Of a stretch of 34,634 nucleotides of DNA, positions 12,554-25,784 are shown piece by piece (position 1 is the first letter of the stretch; every line of letters starts with the position of its first letter). A model generated the notes under the pieces. That model ran no database searches. It was not told the origin of the DNA and saw nothing but the letters and a program-made list of their open reading frames with translations. Location of the stretch: NCBI GenBank assembly GCA_016926755.1, contig JAFGNZ010000055.1, forward strand, positions 1 to 34,634, in the 5' to 3' direction. The stretch comes from Myxococcaceae bacterium (GTDB taxonomy: Bacteria; Myxococcota; Myxococcia; Myxococcales; Myxococcaceae). The translations under genes were made by a program, and so were the position numbers.

Positions 12554-13888
12554 TCAAGCTTCATGGCTCTTGTCCCCCACGATCGTGCGGTGCAGCTTGC
12601 GCAGCGACCGCCAGACGGCGAAACCGACCAGCGGCACGGCCAGCGCGGCCGTCGTCTCGCCGCTGAGCGGCCAGCCCAGCCCGTGCGCCCCCTTGGCCAG
12701 GTAGCTCACCAGGCCGACGATGTAGTAGGTAATGGCCGCCACCGACAAACCCTCCACCGTGGACTGCAGCTTGAGCTGCAGGTCCTGCCGCTGGTTCATG
12801 GTGGCCAGCAGGGCCTGGCTGCTTTGCTGCTGCTCGATCTCGACGCGCGTGCGCAGCAGGTTGCTGATGCGCGAGACGCGCTGCGACAGTGCATCCTGCC
12901 GGCGCGTCACCCACTCGCAGGTGCTGCGCGCCGGCGTCAGCCGCCGGTCCATGAACTCGCGGATGGTCTGCATGCCGACCAGCCGGCTCTCGGCAATGTC
13001 ATCGATGCGCTTGTCGACCAGCTCGAAATAGGCCGCGCTGGCCGAAAAGCGCGAATGGGTGGCGGCGTACTGGCTCTCCACCTCACCGGCCAGCCTGGTC
13101 AGGCGGTCGAGCAGGCGCGGCTCGTCGTTGCGCGTGGCGGTGCGGATGGCCCCGGCCAGCTCGGCCAGCTCGCGCTCGGCCGTGCCCAGCACGCCGGAGG
13201 CCTCGCGCGCGGCCGGCAGGCCCAGCAACGCGGCCATGCGGTAGGTCTCGATCTCCAACAGGCGCTGCACCAGCCGGCCCAGGCGGCGCGGCGTCATGTG
13301 AGCCCCGGCATCGGCTGTGCTGCCCAGCGGATCGACGAACAGCAGGATGCGCGAAAACCCATCGGCATGGATGGCGAAGTCCGTGTAGACCTCGCCGGCG
13401 CCGCCCGCCACGCTGGAGGCGACCAGCGAGTCCTCGTGCAGCACATGCCGTATCAGGCCGCGAGCCCCCTCCTGCTTGGGCAGCGCCCACAGGTGCAGGC
13501 TGGCCAGGCACTGGCCCGGCAGGGCGGCCAACCAGTCCTGCGGCACCACCTCGATGGCGGGCTCGGGCTCGCGCTCGGCATAGGTGTCGGTCGGCAGCAC
13601 GCGCAGGAAGGTCCAGGACACGAACTCGGTATGCAGTTCCCAGCGCAGGCGAAACGATCCCACCTCCATGCGGAAGTGGGTGGTCTGGGCATCCGGCAGC
13701 GGCAGGTCGTGGTCGCGCAGCAGGGCCACCACGTGGGCGCGGCTGGCCTCGCGCTGGGTCGCATCGCACAGCATGATGACGTGCGAGATCGCCAGCGGCG
13801 TGCTCATCGCCTCGGGCGGACGGGCATGGATTTCGTTGTGCAGGGCCACCCTGTGCGGGTGCTGGAAGGGGTGGTGTGTCGGTGGCAT
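12554..13888 (-). CDS. DUF3422 family membrane protein
   Basis: A 444-residue protein of unknown function. The N-terminal LHNEIHARP motif (about residues 17-25) and the overall length match DUF3422. The long middle is helical, with a region like RFSASAAYFELVDKRIDDIAE, then a coiled-coil-like stretch (RISNLLRTRVEIEQQQSSQAL). Two C-terminal membrane helices follow (about 385-402 and 410-428), ending in a basic tail. The ribosome site GAGAGGAC precedes the ATG. To my knowledge DUF3422 is common in beta- and gammaproteobacteria. Its richness in His, Met and Thr and its codon choice look different from the flanking genes, so transfer is possible. Nothing in the context suggests a role. Confidence 0.88.
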   Translation of the reverse strand: MPPTHHPFQHPHRVALHNEIHARPPEAMSTPLAISHVIMLCDATQREASRAHVVALLRDHDLPLPDAQTTHFRMEVGSFRLRWELHTEFVSWTFLRVLPTDTYAEREPEPAIEVVPQDWLAALPGQCLASLHLWALPKQEGARGLIRHVLHEDSLVASSVAGGAGEVYTDFAIHADGFSRILLFVDPLGSTADAGAHMTPRRLGRLVQRLLEIETYRMAALLGLPAAREASGVLGTAERELAELAGAIRTATRNDEPRLLDRLTRLAGEVESQYAATHSRFSASAAYFELVDKRIDDIAESRLVGMQTIREFMDRRLTPARSTCEWVTRRQDALSQRVSRISNLLRTRVEIEQQQSSQALLATMNQRQDLQLKLQSTVEGLSVAAITYYIVGLVSYLAKGAHGLGWPLSGETTAALAVPLVGFAVWRSLRKLHRTIVGDKSHEA

Positions 13889-14060: not shown

Positions 14061-15776
14061 TCAGCCATCCCGCTCGCAGAGGACATTGAGGAGCACGTGG
14101 CGGCTGCCCGTGCGAACCAGCGTGAGCGCCTCGCGCAGGCGATCGGGCAGCTCGGCGGGTGTCTCCGCTCGCAGGCCGATGCCGCCACACGCCTCCGCCA
14201 CCTTCTCGTAGTCGATGGGGTGGGAGAAGTCGGTGAGCGGGAAGCGCCCGGTGCGCACGCTCCAGCCCTCCGGGTGCGAGCCCCGGACGCTGCGCTTGAT
14301 GGTGCTCCAGCCCTGGTCGTTGAAGACGATGACGAGGATGGGCAGCGCCTCGGCCGCGGCGACGTAGTGCGCCGACAGCGGGGTGTTGAACAGGTAGGAG
14401 CCGTCCCCCACCGTCACCACCACCGTCCGCTCCGGCGCGGCGAGCTTCGCCCCCAGCGCCGCGCCGATGGACCACCCAAGCCCGCTGGCGAACGAGTTCT
14501 CGAACCAGCTCCCCGGCCGGCGCCGCGGCACCATCAGCGGATCCAGCGGGTACTCGTTGAAGAGGAGGACGTCGTCATCCACGAGCTGGCCGATGACGCG
14601 CGACAGGTGCGCCTTGGTGATGCGTGGCGCGGTGGCGGCCCGCTCGGCCTCGGCGCGCGCGGTGCCGAAGGTGCGCTCGTGGAGCGAGGCCAGCTCCGCC
14701 CGCGGCGCCCCGGCCTCTCCCAGCCGGTCCGCGAGCGCGCGCAGCGTGGCGGATGGATCCCCGGCGAGCGTCAGGTCCGAGGGGAAGCCCCGGAACGGCA
14801 GATCCGCGAAGAGCGGATCCACGCCCACCTGGATGACCCGCGCATCAGGAGCAGGCCGCGTCCACGCGGGGATCCACGGCACCGGGCACTCCACCGCGAG
14901 GATCAGATCCGCGCCCCCCACGTGCGGCCTCGGATCGAAGCCCAGGTGGTGCGGGTGCTCGGTGGGGAAGTTGTAGAAGTTGCGCTTGCCGTGTTCGATC
15001 ACGCCGAGCCCCGCGCGCAGCGAGAGGGCCTCGAGCGCCTCCGGGCCGCCGGGGTGCCGCCCGAGATCGGCGGTGATGACGAGCGGCCTCCGGGCCTCGC
15101 GCAACCACTGGCGCGCCGTCTCCAGCGCGGCCTCGTCCGGCCGGGAGGGCTGCGCGGGCCGCTGCCGGGGCTGGAGCGAGAGCGTCGCCGCGGGGGCCAG
15201 CTCGCACAGCGGCTCCTTGGGCAGCGTCAGGTACACCGGCCCGGCCGGATCGCTCGCCGTGATGGCCAGGGCGCGGTCCACCACCGTCTCCAGCGAGTGC
15301 GGCCCCTTGAGCTCGTAGTCCCACTTGGTGAACTCGCGGAAGCTGGCCGCCTGATCGAAGGTGTCCTGCCCCCACTGGACGAAGTTGGTGCGCACCCCTG
15401 CCCTGCCCTCCTCGTACCAGGGCGTGCGGCCCGCCATCGCCAGCATGGGGATGCGCGAGCGCCGGGCGTTGATGAGCCCCATGCCGATGTTGGCGGTGCC
15501 CACGTTGACGTGGACCATCACCGCCTGCGGCCGGCCGGACAGCAGCGTGTGGCCGTGCGCCATCGCCACCGCCGTGTTCTCGTGAGGCACTTGCACCACG
15601 CGCAGCTTGAAGGCCGGCTCGTCCGCCATGCGGGCCAGGCCCTCGATGAGGGGCGTGAAGTCCGTCCCCGAGTTGGCGAAGAGCACCTCCACGCCGCGCA
15701 GGGCCAGCAACCGCAGCAGGCGCTGAGCGGTGGTCTCCTCGGGTGCGACGGCCAGGGGGCTCACGGGCTCGCTCAT
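14061..15776 (-). CDS. Thiamine diphosphate-dependent enzyme, acetolactate-synthase-like
   Basis: A 571-residue ThDP enzyme with the usual three domains. The N-terminal pyrimidine-binding domain holds the activating glutamate in VPHENTAVAMAHGH (about residue 65). The middle domain is VYLTLPKEPLCEL onwards. The C-terminal diphosphate domain has the metal motif GDGSYLFNTP ending in ND. It should decarboxylate a 2-oxo acid or join two carbonyl compounds. Glyoxylate carboligase normally lacks that glutamate, so this is not a canonical one. The ATG overlaps the stop of the ring-opening amidohydrolase (ATGA), so it is the third gene of the operon. It may process a keto-acid released by the first two enzymes; the substrate is unknown. 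Confidence 0.88.
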   Translation of the reverse strand: MSEPVSPLAVAPEETTAQRLLRLLALRGVEVLFANSGTDFTPLIEGLARMADEPAFKLRVVQVPHENTAVAMAHGHTLLSGRPQAVMVHVNVGTANIGMGLINARRSRIPMLAMAGRTPWYEEGRAGVRTNFVQWGQDTFDQAASFREFTKWDYELKGPHSLETVVDRALAITASDPAGPVYLTLPKEPLCELAPAATLSLQPRQRPAQPSRPDEAALETARQWLREARRPLVITADLGRHPGGPEALEALSLRAGLGVIEHGKRNFYNFPTEHPHHLGFDPRPHVGGADLILAVECPVPWIPAWTRPAPDARVIQVGVDPLFADLPFRGFPSDLTLAGDPSATLRALADRLGEAGAPRAELASLHERTFGTARAEAERAATAPRITKAHLSRVIGQLVDDDVLLFNEYPLDPLMVPRRRPGSWFENSFASGLGWSIGAALGAKLAAPERTVVVTVGDGSYLFNTPLSAHYVAAAEALPILVIVFNDQGWSTIKRSVRGSHPEGWSVRTGRFPLTDFSHPIDYEKVAEACGGIGLRAETPAELPDRLREALTLVRTGSRHVLLNVLCERDG

Positions 15777-16876
15777 GGCTCCCCCACCCGCGCCACCAGG
15801 GCCAGGGTGCCTCCCCCCAGCGGGCCGTGATGCTCGGCCCGGGTGGAGACATAGACGCGCGTCTCCCCCAGCACGGAGGCCAGCACCGAGGAGAGCACGC
15901 AGCGCGAGTAGCGCGTGTCACTGATGTCGTCGTCCGTCAGCATGGTGTGGCGCTGGCCGCGGATGCTCCCGCGGGGATCCGCCTCGCTCTTGGCGAAGAC
16001 GCCCACCAGCTTCTGCGCCTCCTTCGGATCCGGAGGGACGGTGACGCGCATGCCGAGCTGCTCGGCCACGTCCCGGATCGTCCGCGTGTCGAGCATGTCC
16101 TCCAGCACGCCGTGAGCCACCTGGAGCTCCCCTCCCCAGGCCGGGCTGTTGGCCAGCACGAGCACCTCCGTGCGCTCCAGCCCAGGCTTGGCCGAGCACG
16201 AGGCCACGCCGGAGTAGAGGGACCAGTCGCGGCAGATGACGTCGTCGGAGAGCCGCGCCTCGGGCACCTCGCCCAGCGCCAACGCCACGCCCAGCGCGGA
16301 CGCGCCGCGCGAGTGCACCATGTCGCTGCGCAGCTCACGCCCCGCCTTCCGGGCCGCCTCCGCCTCGGCGAAGGTGGACGCGGGGATGGCGCCCTTCATC
16401 TGCACCAGGTGCACGTCCGCCAGTGACTCGAGCTGGAGCCCCTCGGCCACCTCGCGGACGGCTCGCGCCGTCTCCAGCACCTGCGGCATGCGGCCGATCT
16501 CCTCGGGCCGGAAGGCGCGCGTGTAGCCGATGCCCATGGCCAGGCGCTTGAGCCCGGGACGCGCGGGGGCCGGCGCGGGCTCACGCACGAACACCACCAT
16601 GTGCGGCGTCACCACGCCCTCGGTGCCCCCGGAGAAGGAGAAGATGACGCGGTCCTGGACCCGCTCCGGCGCCAGGCCCAGCCGCGGGCCGAGCAGGTGC
16701 TCGAGCGCCGTCATGGCCAGCTCACGGGTGAAGTCGTTGCGCCCCCCGTTCCCCTCCGTCTTGCCGATGACGCACAGCACGTCCTCGGCGCGGTAGCGGC
16801 CCTCGTCCAGGGCCTGCCGCAGCTGGGACACGTCCGCGGGGCCGCTCGTCGGGTAGTTGAAGGCGCGGATCCTCAC
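15773..16876 (-). CDS. Ring-opening amidohydrolase, cyanuric acid hydrolase/barbiturase family
   Basis: A 367-residue enzyme of the AtzD/barbiturase family, which hydrolyses a C-N bond in cyanuric acid, barbiturate or related rings. The family's threefold Ser-Lys arrangement is visible. The lysines are in GKTEGNG, VQMKGAI and VFAKSEADP. The serines are in FSFSGGTEG, DWSLYSGVASCSA and VYVSTRAEHHGP. The arginine of HSRGASALG and the RGQRHTMLTDDDI block are also conserved. The VSTRAEH sequence differs from the VSGGAEH of AtzD as I recall it, in the last serine site, so specificity may differ. The start is GTG at 16876, overlapping the TGA of the AllA-like gene. The natural substrate is not known. 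Confidence 0.9.
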   Translation of the reverse strand: MRIRAFNYPTSGPADVSQLRQALDEGRYRAEDVLCVIGKTEGNGGRNDFTRELAMTALEHLLGPRLGLAPERVQDRVIFSFSGGTEGVVTPHMVVFVREPAPAPARPGLKRLAMGIGYTRAFRPEEIGRMPQVLETARAVREVAEGLQLESLADVHLVQMKGAIPASTFAEAEAARKAGRELRSDMVHSRGASALGVALALGEVPEARLSDDVICRDWSLYSGVASCSAKPGLERTEVLVLANSPAWGGELQVAHGVLEDMLDTRTIRDVAEQLGMRVTVPPDPKEAQKLVGVFAKSEADPRGSIRGQRHTMLTDDDISDTRYSRCVLSSVLASVLGETRVYVSTRAEHHGPLGGGTLALVARVGEP

Positions 16877-17451
16877 AGCGAGACCCTGAGGATCTTCCCG
16901 GTGCGCTGACGGATGTCGATCTTGAAGACGTCGCCGCGGTCCATCTCCTCGGCGCCCTGCTGGCTGGCCAGCGCCTCCACCACCTCGGCCGAGTTCGCGG
17001 TGAAGACGGTGACGGGCCGCTGGAGGGCCATGGGGAAGTCGTGCCACGTCCCCAGGTGGATCATCACCCCGTGGCCAGGCGGCAGGATGAAGGTGCGGAC
17101 GTCCTCCAGGTCCGGCGCGCTCGCGCCCCGCTGGTGGTTGGGCTTGCCGAGCACGAGCGCCAGGGGCGCGTCCCCCAGGCCGATGAAGAGCTGGGTCATC
17201 CGCAGGTGGCGCTCGAGCCAGGTGATCTCCGGCGGCCGCGGGTGGATGCGCGCGGTCCGCACGACGGCCTGCTCGTGGTACTGGAACGCCAGGTTGTGCC
17301 CCTCCTCGACGGCTCCCTTGTAGAAGGGGATGGGCAGCCCGGAGTTGGGGACATCCGTTCCAATGAAGACGCCGTACTCGGCGATGTTCTCTCGGGTCGC
17401 GTGGAGGGTGGGGACGTTGATGATGGCGGCTGAAGTCGGGAGTCTGTCCAT
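16873..17451 (-). CDS. Ureidoglycolate lyase (AllA) family protein
   Basis: A 192-residue cupin-like protein of the ureidoglycolate lyase family. It carries the family block WLERHLRMTQLFIGLG and the later TFILPPGHGVMIHLGTWHDFP, where the Gly-Val-x-x-His and Trp-His positions match AllA. AllA splits ureidoglycolate into glyoxylate and urea; a ureido-acid is a sensible substrate type here. It is somewhat longer than E. coli AllA (160 residues). The ATG at 17451 is preferred over an in-frame TTG at 17488-17490 that adds 13 residues. It is the first gene of the three-gene operon, and its TGA overlaps the GTG of the amidohydrolase. No other allantoin-pathway gene is nearby. Confidence 0.82.
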   Translation of the reverse strand: MDRLPTSAAIINVPTLHATRENIAEYGVFIGTDVPNSGLPIPFYKGAVEEGHNLAFQYHEQAVVRTARIHPRPPEITWLERHLRMTQLFIGLGDAPLALVLGKPNHQRGASAPDLEDVRTFILPPGHGVMIHLGTWHDFPMALQRPVTVFTANSAEVVEALASQQGAEEMDRGDVFKIDIRQRTGKILRVSL

Positions 17452-17565: not shown

Positions 17566-18630
17566 TCAGTGCCAGGAGCAGGAGTCGTAGAGCTGGCCCC
17601 CGTTGGTGTCCACGGAGCCGGCGGTCTGCCAGTTGATGTTGAAGCTGGCGCCCGTGCCCTCGTAGGTGAACGAGACGGCGGCGTTCAGGATGAGCTGGTG
17701 GGCGCACCGGGTCTCGGACCACGACTTCGTCGCCGCACCGTCCGGCGAGTTGCCGACCATGTTGCCCGTGTTCTCGCAATCGCAGGTGTAGCCGAGGTTG
17801 GCCCAGCAGCTCGACGAGTTGCTGAAGCCGAAGCCCGAGCTCCGGCAGGAGCCATCACCCGCCACGTAGCAGGAGATGCCCATCTCCTGCCGGCCCACCG
17901 TCTTGCCCACCAGCGTGATGCCGAAGACGTTCTTGTACTCCACGGTGTAGCCGCCATAGGTGAGGGTACGCCGGGTGCTGGCGGGGTTGGAGTTCAGCGA
18001 GCAGGTGCCCGCCAGCGCGGACGGACCGGCCGGCCGCTCCACCTGGACGAGCTGCTCCACGGGAGCCCACCCCTCCGCCTGGAGCCGGCGCCGGTTCTGG
18101 AAGAACGCGTCGAGCTGCTGCACGACGGGATCCATCACGATGCACGAGCCCTCGTCCACCCAGCAGATCTCCAGCGCGCGGTGCTCGGACGAGGCCGCGT
18201 CGAGCGCCACGCTGACCGCCAGCAGCCGGTACGTGGCTCCGTCGAGGGACCGGCCCAGCTGCTCGAACCCGCTCAGCCACACGGGCGAGGCCCACTCATC
18301 GAGCGCCGGGACGCGCAGCTCCTGGCGCACGCTCGTAATCTCGGTGCCGCGCTGATCCATCTGGATCCACTGGCTCGGCACCCCGAGCAGCTCATTCACG
18401 GGGCGCTCGGCGATGTCACGCACGGCCCCGGCCTGCAGCGCCTTCACCTCGAAGTCCACCTGGCCCGTCGCCGCCTCCTCGTAGGCCTCATAGACCTGCT
18501 CCGCGTACGCCGAGCCGTCCTGTGACACGGGAGCCGACTCATCCAGGCTCGCGCCGCCACAGCCCCCGAGCCACAGGCTCGCGGACAGGGTGGAGATCAG
18601 CAGCCGAGGTACCAGCGGGGAGCGTCGCAT
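17566..18630 (-). CDS. Cysteine-rich secreted lipoprotein, unrecognised
   Basis: A 354-residue protein. The N-terminal signal MRRSPLVPRLLISTLSASLW leads to a lipobox ending at Cys24 (LGGC), so it should be lipid-anchored. The N-terminal half contains hydrophilic sequence with repeated Glu and Gln. The C-terminal domain (about residues 205-354) carries many cysteines (SCR, SCW, TCDCE, RCAH, SCSWH), implying several disulfides and a compact extracellular domain. The Gly-, Ser- and Asn-rich pattern with aromatic residues suggests a beta-rich fold. I do not recognise a family. It is a single gene, with a terminator after it and an AT-rich promoter zone before it. Confidence 0.8.
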   Translation of the reverse strand: MRRSPLVPRLLISTLSASLWLGGCGGASLDESAPVSQDGSAYAEQVYEAYEEAATGQVDFEVKALQAGAVRDIAERPVNELLGVPSQWIQMDQRGTEITSVRQELRVPALDEWASPVWLSGFEQLGRSLDGATYRLLAVSVALDAASSEHRALEICWVDEGSCIVMDPVVQQLDAFFQNRRRLQAEGWAPVEQLVQVERPAGPSALAGTCSLNSNPASTRRTLTYGGYTVEYKNVFGITLVGKTVGRQEMGISCYVAGDGSCRSSGFGFSNSSSCWANLGYTCDCENTGNMVGNSPDGAATKSWSETRCAHQLILNAAVSFTYEGTGASFNINWQTAGSVDTNGGQLYDSCSWH

Positions 18631-20028: not shown

Positions 20029-22680
20029 ATGAGCGATCCAGCGAGCGCCAGCGGCAGGGAGGCCGCCACCCAGGAGGTACCGCCGGGGAGGTGGACGCCC
20101 ACGCCCAAGGAGGATCCCATCGCCGAGGGCAGCCGCATTGGCCCGTACCGCCTCCTGAGCAAGCTGGGTGAGGGGGGGATGAGCGTGGTGTACCTGGCCT
20201 CCCGGGACGAGGCCCCGGAGTCCAGGCCCGTGGCCCTCAAGTTCGTGCTGCGCGGACCGGTGGAGCGCTTCCACATCGAGCGGCGGATCCTCGGCGCCCT
20301 GGACCACCCGAACATCGCCCGGCTCCATGAGGTGGGGAGCACGGACGAGGGCGTCCCCTACTTCGTCATGGAGTACGTGGAGGGGGCGCGCATCGACGAG
20401 TATTGCGAGCAGGCCCAGCTCTCCATCACCCAGCGGCTCCAGCTGTTCCTGAAGGTCTGCGCCGCGGTGCAGTACGCGCACCAGAACCTGGTGGTGCACC
20501 GCGACATCAAGCCCGGCAACATCCTCGTGAGCCGTGATGGAGAGCCCAAGCTGCTCGACTTCGGGATCGCCAAGCTGCTGGCTCCCGAGGGCATGGAGGG
20601 CCTCCCGGATGCCACGCGCACGGGAGTGCGGCTCCTGACGCCCCGCTACGCCAGCCCCGAGCAGCTGCGCGGCGGCCCCATCACCACCGCGACGGACGTG
20701 TACTCGCTCGGCGTGCTGCTGTACCAGCTCATCACCGGCGAGCTGCCCTACGACTTCAAGTCCCAGAGCATCGAGGATGTCGAGCAGGCCCTGTCGAGCG
20801 CCGAGCCGAGACGGCCGAGCCAGCGCGTGGCGAGGGATCGCTCGCGGAGCATCACCGCTCCGGTGCCGACGGTGTCCCTCAACAAGGGGGCTGGCGCGGA
20901 GGAGCCGCGAGAGGCGGGCTCCCGCCGCTGGGCATGGATGCGGCCGGGCCGGCTGCTCGCGTGGCTGCGGGCCCGCCGTGACTTCGGCCCGGATCTGGAC
21001 AACATCGTCCTGATGGCGCTGCGCAAGGAGGCGGCGCGGCGCTATGCGTCCGTGGAGCAGCTCTCGGAGGACCTGCGGCGCTATCTCGGCGGGCGGCCCG
21101 TGCTGGCGAGGGACGACACGCTGGGCTACCGGCTGGGGAAGTTCCTCCAGCGCCACCGGCTCCCGGTGAGCCTGGCGGCGGGCACCTTCCTGCTGGTGCT
21201 CGGGTTCGCGGTGCTGCTGGCCCTCCAGGTGGAGCGCACGGCCCGGGAGCGGGATCAAGCCCGCCTGGAGCGCGACAAGGCCGAGAAGCTCGTCTCCTTC
21301 ATGCGAGACATCTTCGAGGCGTCCGATCCCGCCATTACCCGCGGGGGCACGCTCACCGCCCGGCAGCTCCTGGAGCGCGGCGCTGCTCGCGTGGAGAAGG
21401 AGCTGGTGGATCAGCCAGAGCTCCAGGCCGGGCTGATGATCACCATCGGCAACGTGTACGTGAACCTGGGCGAGTATGAAAAGGCGCAGCCCCTGCTGGA
21501 CGCCGCGGGGGAGCTGCGGCGCAGGCAGGAGGGCGAGCGCGGCAGCGGCTTCGCCGAGAGCGTGTACGCCCGGGCGACGCTGCACGCGGCCCAGGGGCAC
21601 CTGGAGGAGGCCGAGGCCGGGCTGCGCCAGGCGCTGGCCATCTTCCGGGAGCAGCTCGGCCCGGAGCACGTGAAGGTGGGGGAGGCGCTCTCCCGCCTGG
21701 CGACGGTGCGGGCCACGCGGGGAGACATGGCCGGCGCGGAGGCGTTGGCGAAGGAGGCGCTGGGGCTGCAGCGGCGGATCCTGGGCGAGGAGCACCCCGA
21801 GGTGGCCTCGGTGCTGAACACGCTGGCCGGCATCCACTCCTCGCGGGCGGAGCACGGCGAGGCGGAGCGGCTGCACCGCGAGGCGCTGGCCATCCAGCGC
21901 AAGGTGCTGGGCGAGGATCACCCGCAGACGTTGAGCACGTTGAAGGACATCGCCGCGACGCTGTACGCGAAGACGGAGTACGCGGCCGCGGAGCCGCTCC
22001 AGCGGGAGGTGACGGAGCTGTCCCGGAAGGTGCTGGGCGCCGAGCACCCGGACTACGCCCACGCGCTCACCATGCTCGGGCTCATCCTCTACGCGGAGCA
22101 CCAGTACGCCGAGGCCGAGCCGTACTACCGCCAGGCGCTGGCCATCCAGCGCAAGGCGCTCGGGGCCGAGCACCCCGCCGTGGCGTGGACGACCAACAAC
22201 CTGGCCGCCCTGCTGTACGAGAAGGGAGACGCGGCGGCCGCCGAGCCGCTCTACCACGAGGTGCTCGCCAGCTGGCGCAAGTCCCTGGGGCCCCGGCACG
22301 CGCAGGTGGGCCACGGCCTGCACGGGTTGGGGCGCGCATTGGTGGCGCTGGGGCGCTTCGCCGAAGCGGAGAAGGTGCTCCGGGAGAACCTGGTCATCTG
22401 GCGCGAGTCGCTCCCGGCGGGCCACTGGCGCCTGGCCCAGGGAGACAGCGTGCTGGGAGGGTGTCTGGCGAAGCTGGGGCGCTACGCGGAGGCGGAGCCG
22501 CTGCTCGCCGGGAGCTTCCCCCTCCTCGAGAAGAGCAAGGGGCTGCGCAATCCGGAGACGCAGCTGGCGCTCGAGCGTCTGGTGGAGCTCTACCGGGCCT
22601 GGCGCAAGCCGGTGGAGCTGGCCCGCTACGAGGCGCTCCTGGCGCAGGCGCGACGGGCGGTGGAACCGTCAGGGCCCTGA
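20029..22680 (+). CDS. Membrane Ser/Thr protein kinase with C-terminal TPR repeats
   Basis: An 883-residue Hanks-type kinase. The Gly loop LGEGGMSVVYLA starts near residue 46, the ATP-binding Lys is at 71 (VALKF), the catalytic HRD is at 157-159, DFG is at 177-179, and SPEQL is at the activation-segment end. A roughly 60-residue low-complexity insertion (about 255-315) precedes the last helix of the kinase domain. A single membrane helix spans about 379-400. The periplasmic C-terminal part (about 415-870) is a long run of TPR/Kinesin-light-chain-like repeats with recurring HPEVASVLNTLA-type units, a protein-binding surface. The arrangement is common in myxobacteria. Residues needed for catalysis are all present. 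The stimulus and substrate are unknown. Confidence 0.95.
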   Translation: MSDPASASGREAATQEVPPGRWTPTPKEDPIAEGSRIGPYRLLSKLGEGGMSVVYLASRDEAPESRPVALKFVLRGPVERFHIERRILGALDHPNIARLHEVGSTDEGVPYFVMEYVEGARIDEYCEQAQLSITQRLQLFLKVCAAVQYAHQNLVVHRDIKPGNILVSRDGEPKLLDFGIAKLLAPEGMEGLPDATRTGVRLLTPRYASPEQLRGGPITTATDVYSLGVLLYQLITGELPYDFKSQSIEDVEQALSSAEPRRPSQRVARDRSRSITAPVPTVSLNKGAGAEEPREAGSRRWAWMRPGRLLAWLRARRDFGPDLDNIVLMALRKEAARRYASVEQLSEDLRRYLGGRPVLARDDTLGYRLGKFLQRHRLPVSLAAGTFLLVLGFAVLLALQVERTARERDQARLERDKAEKLVSFMRDIFEASDPAITRGGTLTARQLLERGAARVEKELVDQPELQAGLMITIGNVYVNLGEYEKAQPLLDAAGELRRRQEGERGSGFAESVYARATLHAAQGHLEEAEAGLRQALAIFREQLGPEHVKVGEALSRLATVRATRGDMAGAEALAKEALGLQRRILGEEHPEVASVLNTLAGIHSSRAEHGEAERLHREALAIQRKVLGEDHPQTLSTLKDIAATLYAKTEYAAAEPLQREVTELSRKVLGAEHPDYAHALTMLGLILYAEHQYAEAEPYYRQALAIQRKALGAEHPAVAWTTNNLAALLYEKGDAAAAEPLYHEVLASWRKSLGPRHAQVGHGLHGLGRALVALGRFAEAEKVLRENLVIWRESLPAGHWRLAQGDSVLGGCLAKLGRYAEAEPLLAGSFPLLEKSKGLRNPETQLALERLVELYRAWRKPVELARYEALLAQARRAVEPSGP

Positions 22681-24662: not shown

Positions 24663-25784
24663 TTAGAGGAAGCCGTCGAGCCACGTCAGCTGGGCGTCCA
24701 CCGTCTCCGCGATCACTCTCGGCTGATCCGAGGAGGAGGGCTCCGTGTACGGATTGCCAATCTCCTTGTGCTTCCACCGGACCCAGTTCTGCTTGTACCA
24801 GCCCCAGTCGAGGTTGGAGCCCGTCTTCGGCGGTGAGCTGCCCGAGTACGCCGAGAAGGCGCGGATCCCCGTCAGCGGAGCGACTTCATCGCCTCCCACG
24901 ACGTGGAAGATGTGGAGCAGCGAGCGACGCGGGAACTGCGCCGTCAGGTCCGTGGCCCAGCCGCCATAGGACGTGAGAGAGGGCCTCACCGGGTTGTTGA
25001 TCTTCTCCCCGAAGGTGCCCAGCTCGCCCTGGGAGTACTTGCACACCCCGTCGAAGGAGGACACGTAGATCGAGATCCCGTCGAGGCTCGGGTTGTTGCG
25101 CAAGGCCTGGGCCATGCGCATCACCAGACAGCCCCCTCGCGAGCTCCCCGCCAGGTAGATGACGCGCGTCTCCGGGCGGACCTGCGCCTCGAGCCAGTGC
25201 ACGAAGCCATTGACGATCTGCTGCTTCTTGTCGCTGGCGAAGAGGTGGTCGAAGTTGTTGTCGTTCACCACGGCCATCCACGTGGAGGCCGGAGGCAACC
25301 AGCCCAGGCTGCGCAGCTTCATCCCCAGCGAGCGCCCGTCCAGCGTGACGTTGGAGCAGGTGACGTCGCCGCAGGACGCGTCCCAGTTCGAGGCCTGTCC
25401 TGTCAGCCCGTTGGAGTGGCCGCTGCTGCTCGAGACCTTCTGCCCGGCCGACATCACCACCAGCGCGTTGCGCACGGCCGGCGCATCCACCTCGGCGATG
25501 CGGATGGCATGCAGGTCGCTGTCCGGCGCCCCCGCCGCCCGGAAGGCCTCGAGGCCGGCCGCGGCCCTGTAGCTCCCGGAGGCGTCCTTGTACACGACGC
25601 GCCGGGACGTCACCGTCCGGCTGCTCCCATTCGGGTACGTGAGGGCGGAGGCCACCACACCGTGCGGCTCGCCGGAGCCCTCCTCCAGCTCCTGTCCACC
25701 ACAGCCAGCCAGGGCTCCTCCCAGGAGCCACGTCAGGGCCGCGCTCGAGAGCGCGGTGCGAAGGAGCTTCGGTCTGCCATGCAT
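24663..25784 (-). CDS. Lipoprotein with alpha/beta-hydrolase nucleophile motif
   Basis: A 373-residue protein with a signal peptide ending in a good lipobox LAGC (Cys28). A Gly-Ser-Ser-Arg-Gly motif (residues 213-217) follows a hydrophobic strand (RVIYLAGSSRGG), which is the GxSxG nucleophile elbow of alpha/beta hydrolases. The Asp and His of the triad are plausibly in the DGVCKYS and HIFHVVGGDE regions. Two extra cysteines near 138 and 143 could form a disulfide. It should be an outer-membrane or periplasm-facing esterase, lipase or peptidase; substrate unknown. It lies downstream of rapZ in the same direction, 30 bp away, but it looks functionally separate. Confidence 0.75.
   Translation of the reverse strand: MHGRPKLLRTALSSAALTWLLGGALAGCGGQELEEGSGEPHGVVASALTYPNGSSRTVTSRRVVYKDASGSYRAAAGLEAFRAAGAPDSDLHAIRIAEVDAPAVRNALVVMSAGQKVSSSSGHSNGLTGQASNWDASCGDVTCSNVTLDGRSLGMKLRSLGWLPPASTWMAVVNDNNFDHLFASDKKQQIVNGFVHWLEAQVRPETRVIYLAGSSRGGCLVMRMAQALRNNPSLDGISIYVSSFDGVCKYSQGELGTFGEKINNPVRPSLTSYGGWATDLTAQFPRRSLLHIFHVVGGDEVAPLTGIRAFSAYSGSSPPKTGSNLDWGWYKQNWVRWKHKEIGNPYTEPSSSDQPRVIAETVDAQLTWLDGFL

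Follow-up and report, generated by a model that had tools for sequence, protein, structure and literature searches.

A rare three-gene operon with a Group IV ring-opening amidohydrolase and an AllA-like partner recurs as a block in unrelated bacteria

The AtzD/barbiturase family of ring-opening amidohydrolases was divided into six groups on the basis of five specificity residues (Peat et al. 2013, PMC3758960). According to the available part of that paper, Group IV is marked by Arg195, Met/Thr321, Arg325, Thr345 and Arg346 (AtzD numbering) and was recorded in 2013 only from Sulfobacillus and Acidithiobacillus, with function not known; a role unique to the physiology of these genera was proposed, as no other organisms had it. 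The signature given there for the barbiturases (Group VI) is Asn195, His321, Lys325, Val345 and Ser/Ala346. For the cyanuric acid hydrolases, the motif S-G-G-X-E-X-Q-G-P-X-G-G-G-P and two defining arginines, R194 and R324 of the ADP AtzD, were named in the accessible part of PMC9118981. Here, a member of this family encoded in a 34,634-nucleotide stretch from a Myxococcaceae bacterium (contig JAFGNZ010000055.1; the whole stretch is called the window) was analyzed together with the two genes that overlap it, for an AllA-like protein and a thiamine diphosphate (ThDP)-dependent enzyme. We know of no activity for a Group IV enzyme, and no paper reporting one could be found among the open-licence PMC papers, which is the scope of all literature searches given below.

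The closest described operon is atzDGEHF of Pseudomonas sp. ADP, of which the AtzD is homologous to the window enzyme with 44.7% identity. The Group IV locus of Acidithiobacillus caldus also continues with DUF4089, AtzE and HpxZ-type genes in the manner of atzDGEHF. However, atzDGEHF has neither an AllA-like gene nor a ThDP enzyme gene, and its amidohydrolase reads SGG at the third serine where the window enzyme reads STR. In the allantoin pathway, the ureidoglycolate lyase AllA eliminates urea from a hydroxy-ureido carbon and leaves a carbonyl. It shares PF04115, the bicupin fold and the core E-x-H, Q and W-H residues with the window protein, which unlike AllA falls below the listed NCBIfam AllA cut-offs and has several canonical residues altered. 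Glyoxylate carboligase, likewise a ThDP enzyme, is encoded two genes from the AllA gene in E. coli. The window locus places a known enzyme group in a new operon variant and is no categorically new system, since the sub-group has already been recognised in print (PMC3758960, in its available part). What is new is the near-constant AllA-like partner, the wider distribution of Group IV and its occurrence in two gene contexts.

The genes and their overlaps in the window were as follows.

16873 to 17451, minus strand: gene for an AllA-like (PF04115) bicupin of 192 amino acids, with a PF04115 match and a predicted structure resembling E. coli AllA (1xsq)
16873 to 16876, minus strand: GTGA, where the stop of the AllA-like gene overlaps the start of the amidohydrolase gene, read from the sequence
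15773 to 16876, minus strand: gene for a ring-opening amidohydrolase of the AtzD/barbiturase family, 367 amino acids, GTG start, Group IV signature
15773 to 15776, minus strand: ATGA, where the stop of the amidohydrolase gene overlaps the start of the ThDP enzyme gene, read from the sequence
14061 to 15776, minus strand: gene for a ThDP-dependent enzyme (PRK08327 type) of 571 amino acids, with family matches and ThDP motifs

From 17451 to 14061 on the minus strand, the order is AllA-like gene, amidohydrolase gene and ThDP enzyme gene. The overlaps, which had been reported in a first-pass annotation made from the DNA alone, were recovered on this strand and, as the sole basis for that reading, suggest that the three genes are co-transcribed. 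A promoter scan at the trio revealed no sigma-70-like site, although this consensus is a poor guide in a GC-rich, myxobacterium-like genome.

The first-pass annotation had treated the three genes as a unit, and the trio was indeed conserved elsewhere: when loci were retrieved with the amidohydrolase as the only query, 16 of the 17 held the AllA-like gene and 13 the ThDP enzyme gene. Gene calls in these loci were mechanical, and flank lengths varied such that the absence of a neighbour was unevenly tested. The loci came from Myxococcota including Nannocystis, from Melainabacteria/Obscuribacterales metagenome-assembled genomes (MAGs) and their classmates, from one Blastocatellia MAG and from two Bacillota MAGs. 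The trio is a rare breakdown operon which recurs as a block in unrelated bacteria. Family matches were found in one of 195 genomes from the phylum of the window, in none of six other genomes of its genus, in 1 of 297 genomes of the phylum of the Blastocatellia MAG, in 3 of 188 of the Nannocystis phylum and in 9 of 289 of the class of locus L007. The class of locus L017 gave 10 matches among 151 genomes; seven of the ten were Group IV by motif, and two of these held another family member too. These samples were partial and each included its own centre genome, and the initial pass scored some candidates only. The patchy spread over distant groups, together with the absence from close kin, suggests horizontal transfer of the Group IV enzyme. 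Moreover, the presence of Group IV in myxobacteria and others argues against the published suggestion that its role is restricted to Sulfobacillus and Acidithiobacillus.

The amidohydrolase matched PF09663 with 418 bits (cut-off 25), which places it in the AtzD/barbiturase family as first annotated. All three catalytic Ser-Lys pairs (K39/S82, K161/S228 and K296/S344) and the three arginines of the family (R51, R190 and R325) were kept. At the specificity positions the enzyme carries R190, T321, R325, T345 and R346, the Group IV signature; the aligned plasmid AtzD is numbered one lower than in PMC3758960 at these positions, which were matched by motif. The signature and catalytic residues are the same as those of the Group IV of PMC3758960, whereas the organisms here are myxobacteria and others, and the available part of that paper mentions neither an AllA-like partner nor a ThDP enzyme.

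The possibility of a plain cyanuric acid hydrolase operon, in which cyanuric acid would be converted to carboxybiuret or biuret and the neighbours would be incidental, arises from the family score, since the NCBIfam equivalog cut-off for cyanuric acid hydrolase was exceeded (388.3 vs 360). All three Ser/Lys/Arg sets are intact, and R190 and R325 match R194 and R324, the arginines named as defining. A BiuH-type biuret hydrolase (375.6 vs 370) in one Group IV genome, G645, and AtzE/AtzG/HpxZ-type genes after the pair in A. caldus, comparable to atzDGEHF, would also fit. However, the cyanuric acid hydrolase motif SGGXEXQGPXGGGP (PMC9118981, accessible part) is absent, the window reading STRAEHHGPLGGGT instead, and a near-constant AllA-like partner is left unexplained. 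In a maximum-likelihood tree, Group IV was split from the SGG-type enzymes with 100/100 support, the same split as that obtained by motif sorting, on a long branch of 1.38 changes per site in total (0.35 + 1.03 about the midpoint root). A plain cyanuric acid hydrolase, the case that the first-pass annotation had named as refuting, is markedly improbable: despite the NCBIfam score, the enzyme with its Group IV specificity residues does not look like one. If Group IV proteins do not act on cyanuric acid, the NCBIfam model mislabels them, and such mislabelling bears on claims of natural s-triazine degradation.

Six fixed positions, S80, A163, R183, K230, T345 and R346, separated Group IV from the SGG-type enzymes (26 of 26 vs 0 of 10). 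Both sets were sorted by the motif at 344–346, with the distant L086 included in the SGG set, so the differences at T345 and R346 follow from the sorting and the other four positions are independent of it. Along the chain, none of the six is more than seven residues away from a catalytic Ser, Lys or Arg, and three of them (R183, K230 and R346) bring in a positive charge. The structure model of the amidohydrolase had a mean predicted local distance difference test (pLDDT) score of 86.4.

Several other family members were observed in the course of this comparison. L086, from genome G205, is a distant member (37% identity) with the motif SGGTEHQAP and a very long branch, lies directly after a FAH-type gene and may represent another unassigned group of the family. 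In L102, a Pseudanabaena plasmid, an SGG-type amidohydrolase lies among the urate genes HpxO, UraD, PuuE and UraH, unlike the atz-type contexts elsewhere, and in L099, a Polaromonas plasmid, another adjoins a divergent ureidoglycolate lyase gene and a dihydropyrimidinase gene. Ring-opening amidohydrolases adjoin FdrA and DUF1116 genes in the enterobacterial and Aminobacter plasmids L097, L100 and L103, a set reminiscent of the allFGH oxalurate genes.

Of the 25 Group IV genomes, 24 encoded the AllA-like protein with a score of at least 277 bits; neither of the two genomes with only an SGG (cyanuric)-type enzyme had it. Its gene was adjacent to the amidohydrolase gene in 22 of the 25. The sole genome without it was G934, where a 30-bit match only was obtained. 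In the MAG G195, the AllA-like gene lies beside a PanE-like gene on a separate contig and the amidohydrolase stays with the ThDP fusion described below. In G645, it belongs to a cluster of xanthine dehydrogenase (XDH), AllA, amidase and amidohydrolase genes, and the Group IV amidohydrolase is on a separate contig. The pairwise distances of the two proteins were correlated (r = 0.80, 21 pairs; none of 5000 permutations as high) in a Mantel test, which takes no account of the shared ancestry of the organisms and in which the genes of G195 and G645 were paired across contigs. Functional coupling of the AllA-like protein to the Group IV amidohydrolase is almost certain.

Assignment of the first gene to the ureidoglycolate lyase family held for the PF04115 match (44.8 bits, cut-off 23) and failed for the canonical enzyme, as the protein fell under every NCBIfam AllA cut-off (best 35.3 bits vs 212; six models listed, cut-offs 160–282). 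Its predicted structure (pLDDT 85.5) is a bicupin which Foldseek matched to 1xsq with an E value of 1.5e-10, and also to 2bdr and 1yqc. Residues E80, H82, Q87, F89, W136, H137 and others were shared with eight canonical-type AllA proteins, a set picked by annotation or similarity rather than by activity.

Additional AllA-like proteins were noticed outside the Group IV pairs. Contig C265 of the window genome (L114/L115) encodes a second protein much nearer to canonical AllA (149.2 bits vs a cut-off of 160) and also holds an XDH-type gene. A plasmid of Novosphingobium sp. RL4 (L052) encodes an AllA-like protein with 33% identity to that of the window in a differing, unannotated context, and four further Novosphingobium plasmids hold such a protein.

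Examination of the surrounding genes revealed two contexts. In context 1, the pair is preceded by genes for molybdenum hydroxylase subunits and followed by one for an amidase. It occurred in six genomes from the Bacillota class of L017 (G205, G206, G534, G573, G631 and G633), in all of which an aminohydrolase gene also follows, and in two A. caldus plasmids, with an ISL3 element interposed in strain MTH-04. G645 is counted here as well, although its Group IV amidohydrolase is encoded apart from the cluster. A FAH-type hydrolase was encoded in four context-1 loci (L017, L018, L083 and L085), an NCS1-type permease (PF02133) in L018 and L085 with a fragment in L017, an adenine deaminase in L085 and a formamidase-like protein in L018 and L083. 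Downstream of the pair, A. caldus has XdhC, DUF4089, AtzE-type, HpxZ and gamma-glutamyltransferase (GGT) genes. The BiuH-type gene of G645 mentioned above belongs to its XDH-AllA cluster (L112:1541-2275), which also includes a formamidase fragment and a cytosine-permease-like gene whose score is under the cut-off. Ammonia-oxidising archaea are reported, in the available part of PMC12625717, to have a comparable combination of biuH, FAH-type, gatA-like amidase and codB genes.

Context 2 is defined by the ThDP enzyme and was present in 15 of the 25 genomes (the window genome, G195, G196, G197, G199–G204, G719, G825, G839, G863 and G964); in G975, the contig edge is reached within the alpha/beta domain. 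The fusion gene of Nannocystis lies about 4 kb from the AllA-like/amidohydrolase pair. A PanE-like reductase gene was found in 8 of the 25 genomes, beside the set in G197, G199, G202, G204, G863, G964 and G975 and beside the AllA-like gene in G195. Neither context module was near the amidohydrolase in G198 and G934. Molybdenum hydroxylase domains as such were encoded in 23 of the 25 genomes, too common to discriminate.

The description of the last gene as an acetolactate-synthase-like ThDP enzyme agreed with its matches. The TPP domains PF02775 and PF02776 scored over cut-off and PF00205 just below it (30.2 vs 30.4), and the protein belongs to NCBIfam PRK08327 (NF006203) with 610.7 bits against a cut-off of 456. 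The ThDP motifs comprise E66 in PHENT and GDGS(457)...ND. In 14 of the 15 ThDP-type genomes, an alpha/beta hydrolase is fused in frame to the ThDP enzyme; the window protein alone is without this domain and begins at the linker, its match spanning model positions 275–855. Fusion proteins of 810–886 amino acids were found in L002, L005, L007, L008, L013, L015 and L016 (Myxococcota, Melainabacteria-type and Blastocatellia). The 3-oxoadipate enol-lactonase PcaD and RutD are among the nearest named families of the fused domain; however, the four domains tested stayed below both cut-offs (118–147 bits vs 255.85 for PcaD, 75–88 vs 238.5 for RutD). Several alpha/beta hydrolases elsewhere in the window genome matched the fused domain, the best with 95.3 bits, and the one compared by identity (L035) showed 25–28%.

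Glyoxylate carboligase (Gcl) is without the catalytic Glu, whereas the window ThDP enzyme is of the PRK08327 type and keeps it as E66. A glyoxylate carboligase-type ending was downgraded on this comparison with Gcl as generally described. Among plasmid-borne ThDP homologues, two of 818 matching records were inspected (Roseomonas and Diaphorobacter), and both contexts were without the pair.

The neighbours in context 1 give some weight to a barbiturase acting in the oxidative pyrimidine route, with the AllA-like protein as the missing ureidomalonase that would yield urea and malonate. The pair, or its AllA-like half, has molybdenum hydroxylase, NCS1-type and cytosine-permease-like genes as neighbours, and AllA and ureidomalonase each release urea from a ureido acid. 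The barbiturase signature is nevertheless absent from the window enzyme, which has R190, T321, R325, T345 and R346 in its place, a comparison made with the published Group VI signature as the alignment held no Group VI sequence. Malonate would also be of no obvious use to a 2-oxo-acid ThDP enzyme, and this route is distinctly unlikely. A plain barbiturase, like a plain cyanuric acid hydrolase, was downgraded on the signature residues.

The reading preferred here, although with somewhat less than even confidence, is that of an operon for the breakdown of a monocyclic ureide stemming from oxidised nucleobases, in which urea would be released and a 2-oxo acid left for the ThDP enzyme. In context 1, the molybdenum hydroxylase and the permeases for nucleobases suggest a nucleobase source, and the intact three-fold Ser/Lys/Arg set suggests a ring that is monocyclic and has carbonyl-type oxygens in three positions. 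The added positive charges point to an extra anionic or oxygenated substrate group, and a 2-oxo or 1,3-dicarbonyl acid product is proposed because the FAH-type and ThDP enzymes would both suit such an acid. The gene identities, the intact catalytic residues, the recurrence of the block, the near-obligate pairing of the AllA-like protein with the amidohydrolase and the residue differences from cyanuric acid hydrolases are observed; the substrate, the order of steps, the release of urea and the role of the ThDP enzyme are inferred.

The Group IV amidohydrolase would open a six-membered ring with imide carbonyls by means of a Ser-Lys dyad, and that it acts as a ring opener is very probable. The ring would bear a further group, anionic or heavily oxygenated, which the added residues R183, K230 and R346 would bind. 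Of the Ser-Lys pairs, S228-K161 would most likely serve as the dyad. It corresponds to Ser226/Lys156, the pair preferred in PMC4051656; PMC3758960 prefers the counterpart of S82-K39 (available parts of both). The AllA-like bicupin may remove urea from a carbon bearing hydroxyl and ureido groups, before or after ring opening, and the balance leans slightly towards urea release. The residue would be a 2-oxo acid, such as a mesoxalate- or oxaloacetate-like one, which the ThDP enzyme would decarboxylate or join to an aldehyde; the chances that it acts on this acid are evenly divided. In other organisms, an amidase, in some with a FAH-type hydrolase, would take the place of the ThDP ending. By general chemistry, urea leaving first would give an alloxan-like ring and then the acylurea mesoxalurate, which would suit the amidases, and ring opening first with an orotate-type acid would give oxaloacetate, which would suit the FAH-type enzyme. 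Any single named substrate is, at best, improbable. The cyclic-ureide route of the first-pass annotation is likewise chemically reasonable, that is, plausible but unproven. Its statement that it knew of no described pathway with this combination stood to the extent that no paper on the trio was found; the enzyme sub-group itself was already in print (PMC3758960, available part).

Several observations weigh against the ureide reading. Five residues fixed in all eight canonical-type AllA proteins (P7, F13, P83, F136 and E150) are changed in the AllA-like clade, and R37, present in seven of the eight, is replaced, with E50 in 21 of 21 clade members. Because of these changes, the AllA-like reaction may be other than urea elimination. 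The AllA-like gene also appears damaged in L014 (match in two frames) and L088 (in-frame stop near the end). Apart from the window genome, the ThDP-type genomes (14, several of them draft MAGs) gave no urease score above the cut-off, so urea is not obviously used there. Over the 25 genomes, urease was over cut-off in nine: all six context-1 genomes, G645, G934 and the window genome. Uricase was present in 1 of 25 genomes, namely G934, also the one without the AllA-like protein, and HpxO reached its 500-bit cut-off in none of the 25 (best 280.5 in the window genome, 267.9 in G839 and 253.8 in G198). In the context-2 loci a molybdenum hydroxylase was found only once, some 12 kb upstream in Nannocystis (L116). 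The aminohydrolase of L085 passes the NCBIfam 5'-deoxyadenosine deaminase cut-off (530.6 vs 522), a salvage function outside this reading. The suggested pocket role of R183 and K230 is read from their position along the chain rather than from coordinates. Finally, the amidase and HpxXYZ/GGT-type genes suit an acylurea intermediate, and a simple route of AtzD followed by AllA leaves none. As a separate observation on G934, no module could be seen beside its amidohydrolase (L093).

An acylurea would arise in a uricase-free purine route through an alloxan-like ring, in which the AllA-like protein would take urea from 5-hydroxy-5-ureido-barbiturate, the amidohydrolase would open alloxan to mesoxalurate, and an amidase with HpxXYZ-type proteins, or the alpha/beta hydrolase with the ThDP enzyme, would finish. 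Such a route would account for the XDH and XdhC genes, the adenine deaminase of L085, the acylurea-type amidases and the 24 of 25 genomes without uricase, and it would draw on both of the urea units that a purine contains. Its chemistry is general. Against it, no enzyme for C5 oxidation was identified, the best HpxO score being 280.5 of 500 bits, and the scarcity of molybdenum hydroxylase in context 2 applies here as well. This route is considered unlikely.

The three positive charges added near catalytic residues in sequence could instead serve an orotate- or oxonate-type route, with a ring carboxylate bound by K230 and R346, in which opening and urea elimination would yield oxaloacetate, or oxalyl-biuret from oxonate. 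The four loci with a FAH-type hydrolase next to the pair, the oxalurate-type genes of A. caldus and the BiuH of G645 would be consistent with it. It leaves the molybdenum hydroxylase unexplained, and the chemistry is again general; its probability is low, much like that of a plain cyanuric acid hydrolase. Literature on alloxan, oxonate and nucleobase use by Sulfobacillus gave nothing usable for this question.

In its widest form, the ureide reading would describe an undescribed nucleobase pathway without uricase and without the reductive or Rut pyrimidine routes. A Toblerone-fold Group IV amidohydrolase and a dedicated AllA-like lyase would dismantle an oxidised, anionic pyrimidine-type ring to urea and a 2-oxo acid. 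The pathway could end in either of two exchangeable ways, through the alpha/beta hydrolase-ThDP fusion or through an amidase that a FAH-type hydrolase may accompany. It would have spread horizontally among myxobacteria, Melainabacteria-type bacteria, Acidobacteriota, acidophilic Bacillota and Acidithiobacillus. This proposal is conceivable but doubtful. For the missing substrate of Group IV, the AllA-like partner and the two contexts provide a short list of assayable candidates.

With regard to coding evidence, the third-position guanine plus cytosine (GC) content was high (0.94) in the AllA-like and ThDP enzyme genes. The amidohydrolase gene was omitted from the greedy gene list based on this measure because its longest reading overlaps the AllA-like gene; its frame is open and stop-free, with the 418-bit family match given above. 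The downstream neighbour on the same strand (12554–13888) encodes a DUF3422 protein, and the upstream neighbour (17566–18630), with no family assigned, has a probably secreted product. Relatives of these two occurred in no fetched locus outside the window's own genome. Elsewhere in the window, two proteins with lipoprotein-like starts, at 17566–18630 and 24663–25784, had no Pfam match at the thresholds used, and an 883-amino-acid protein kinase with tetratricopeptide repeats is encoded at 20029–22680.

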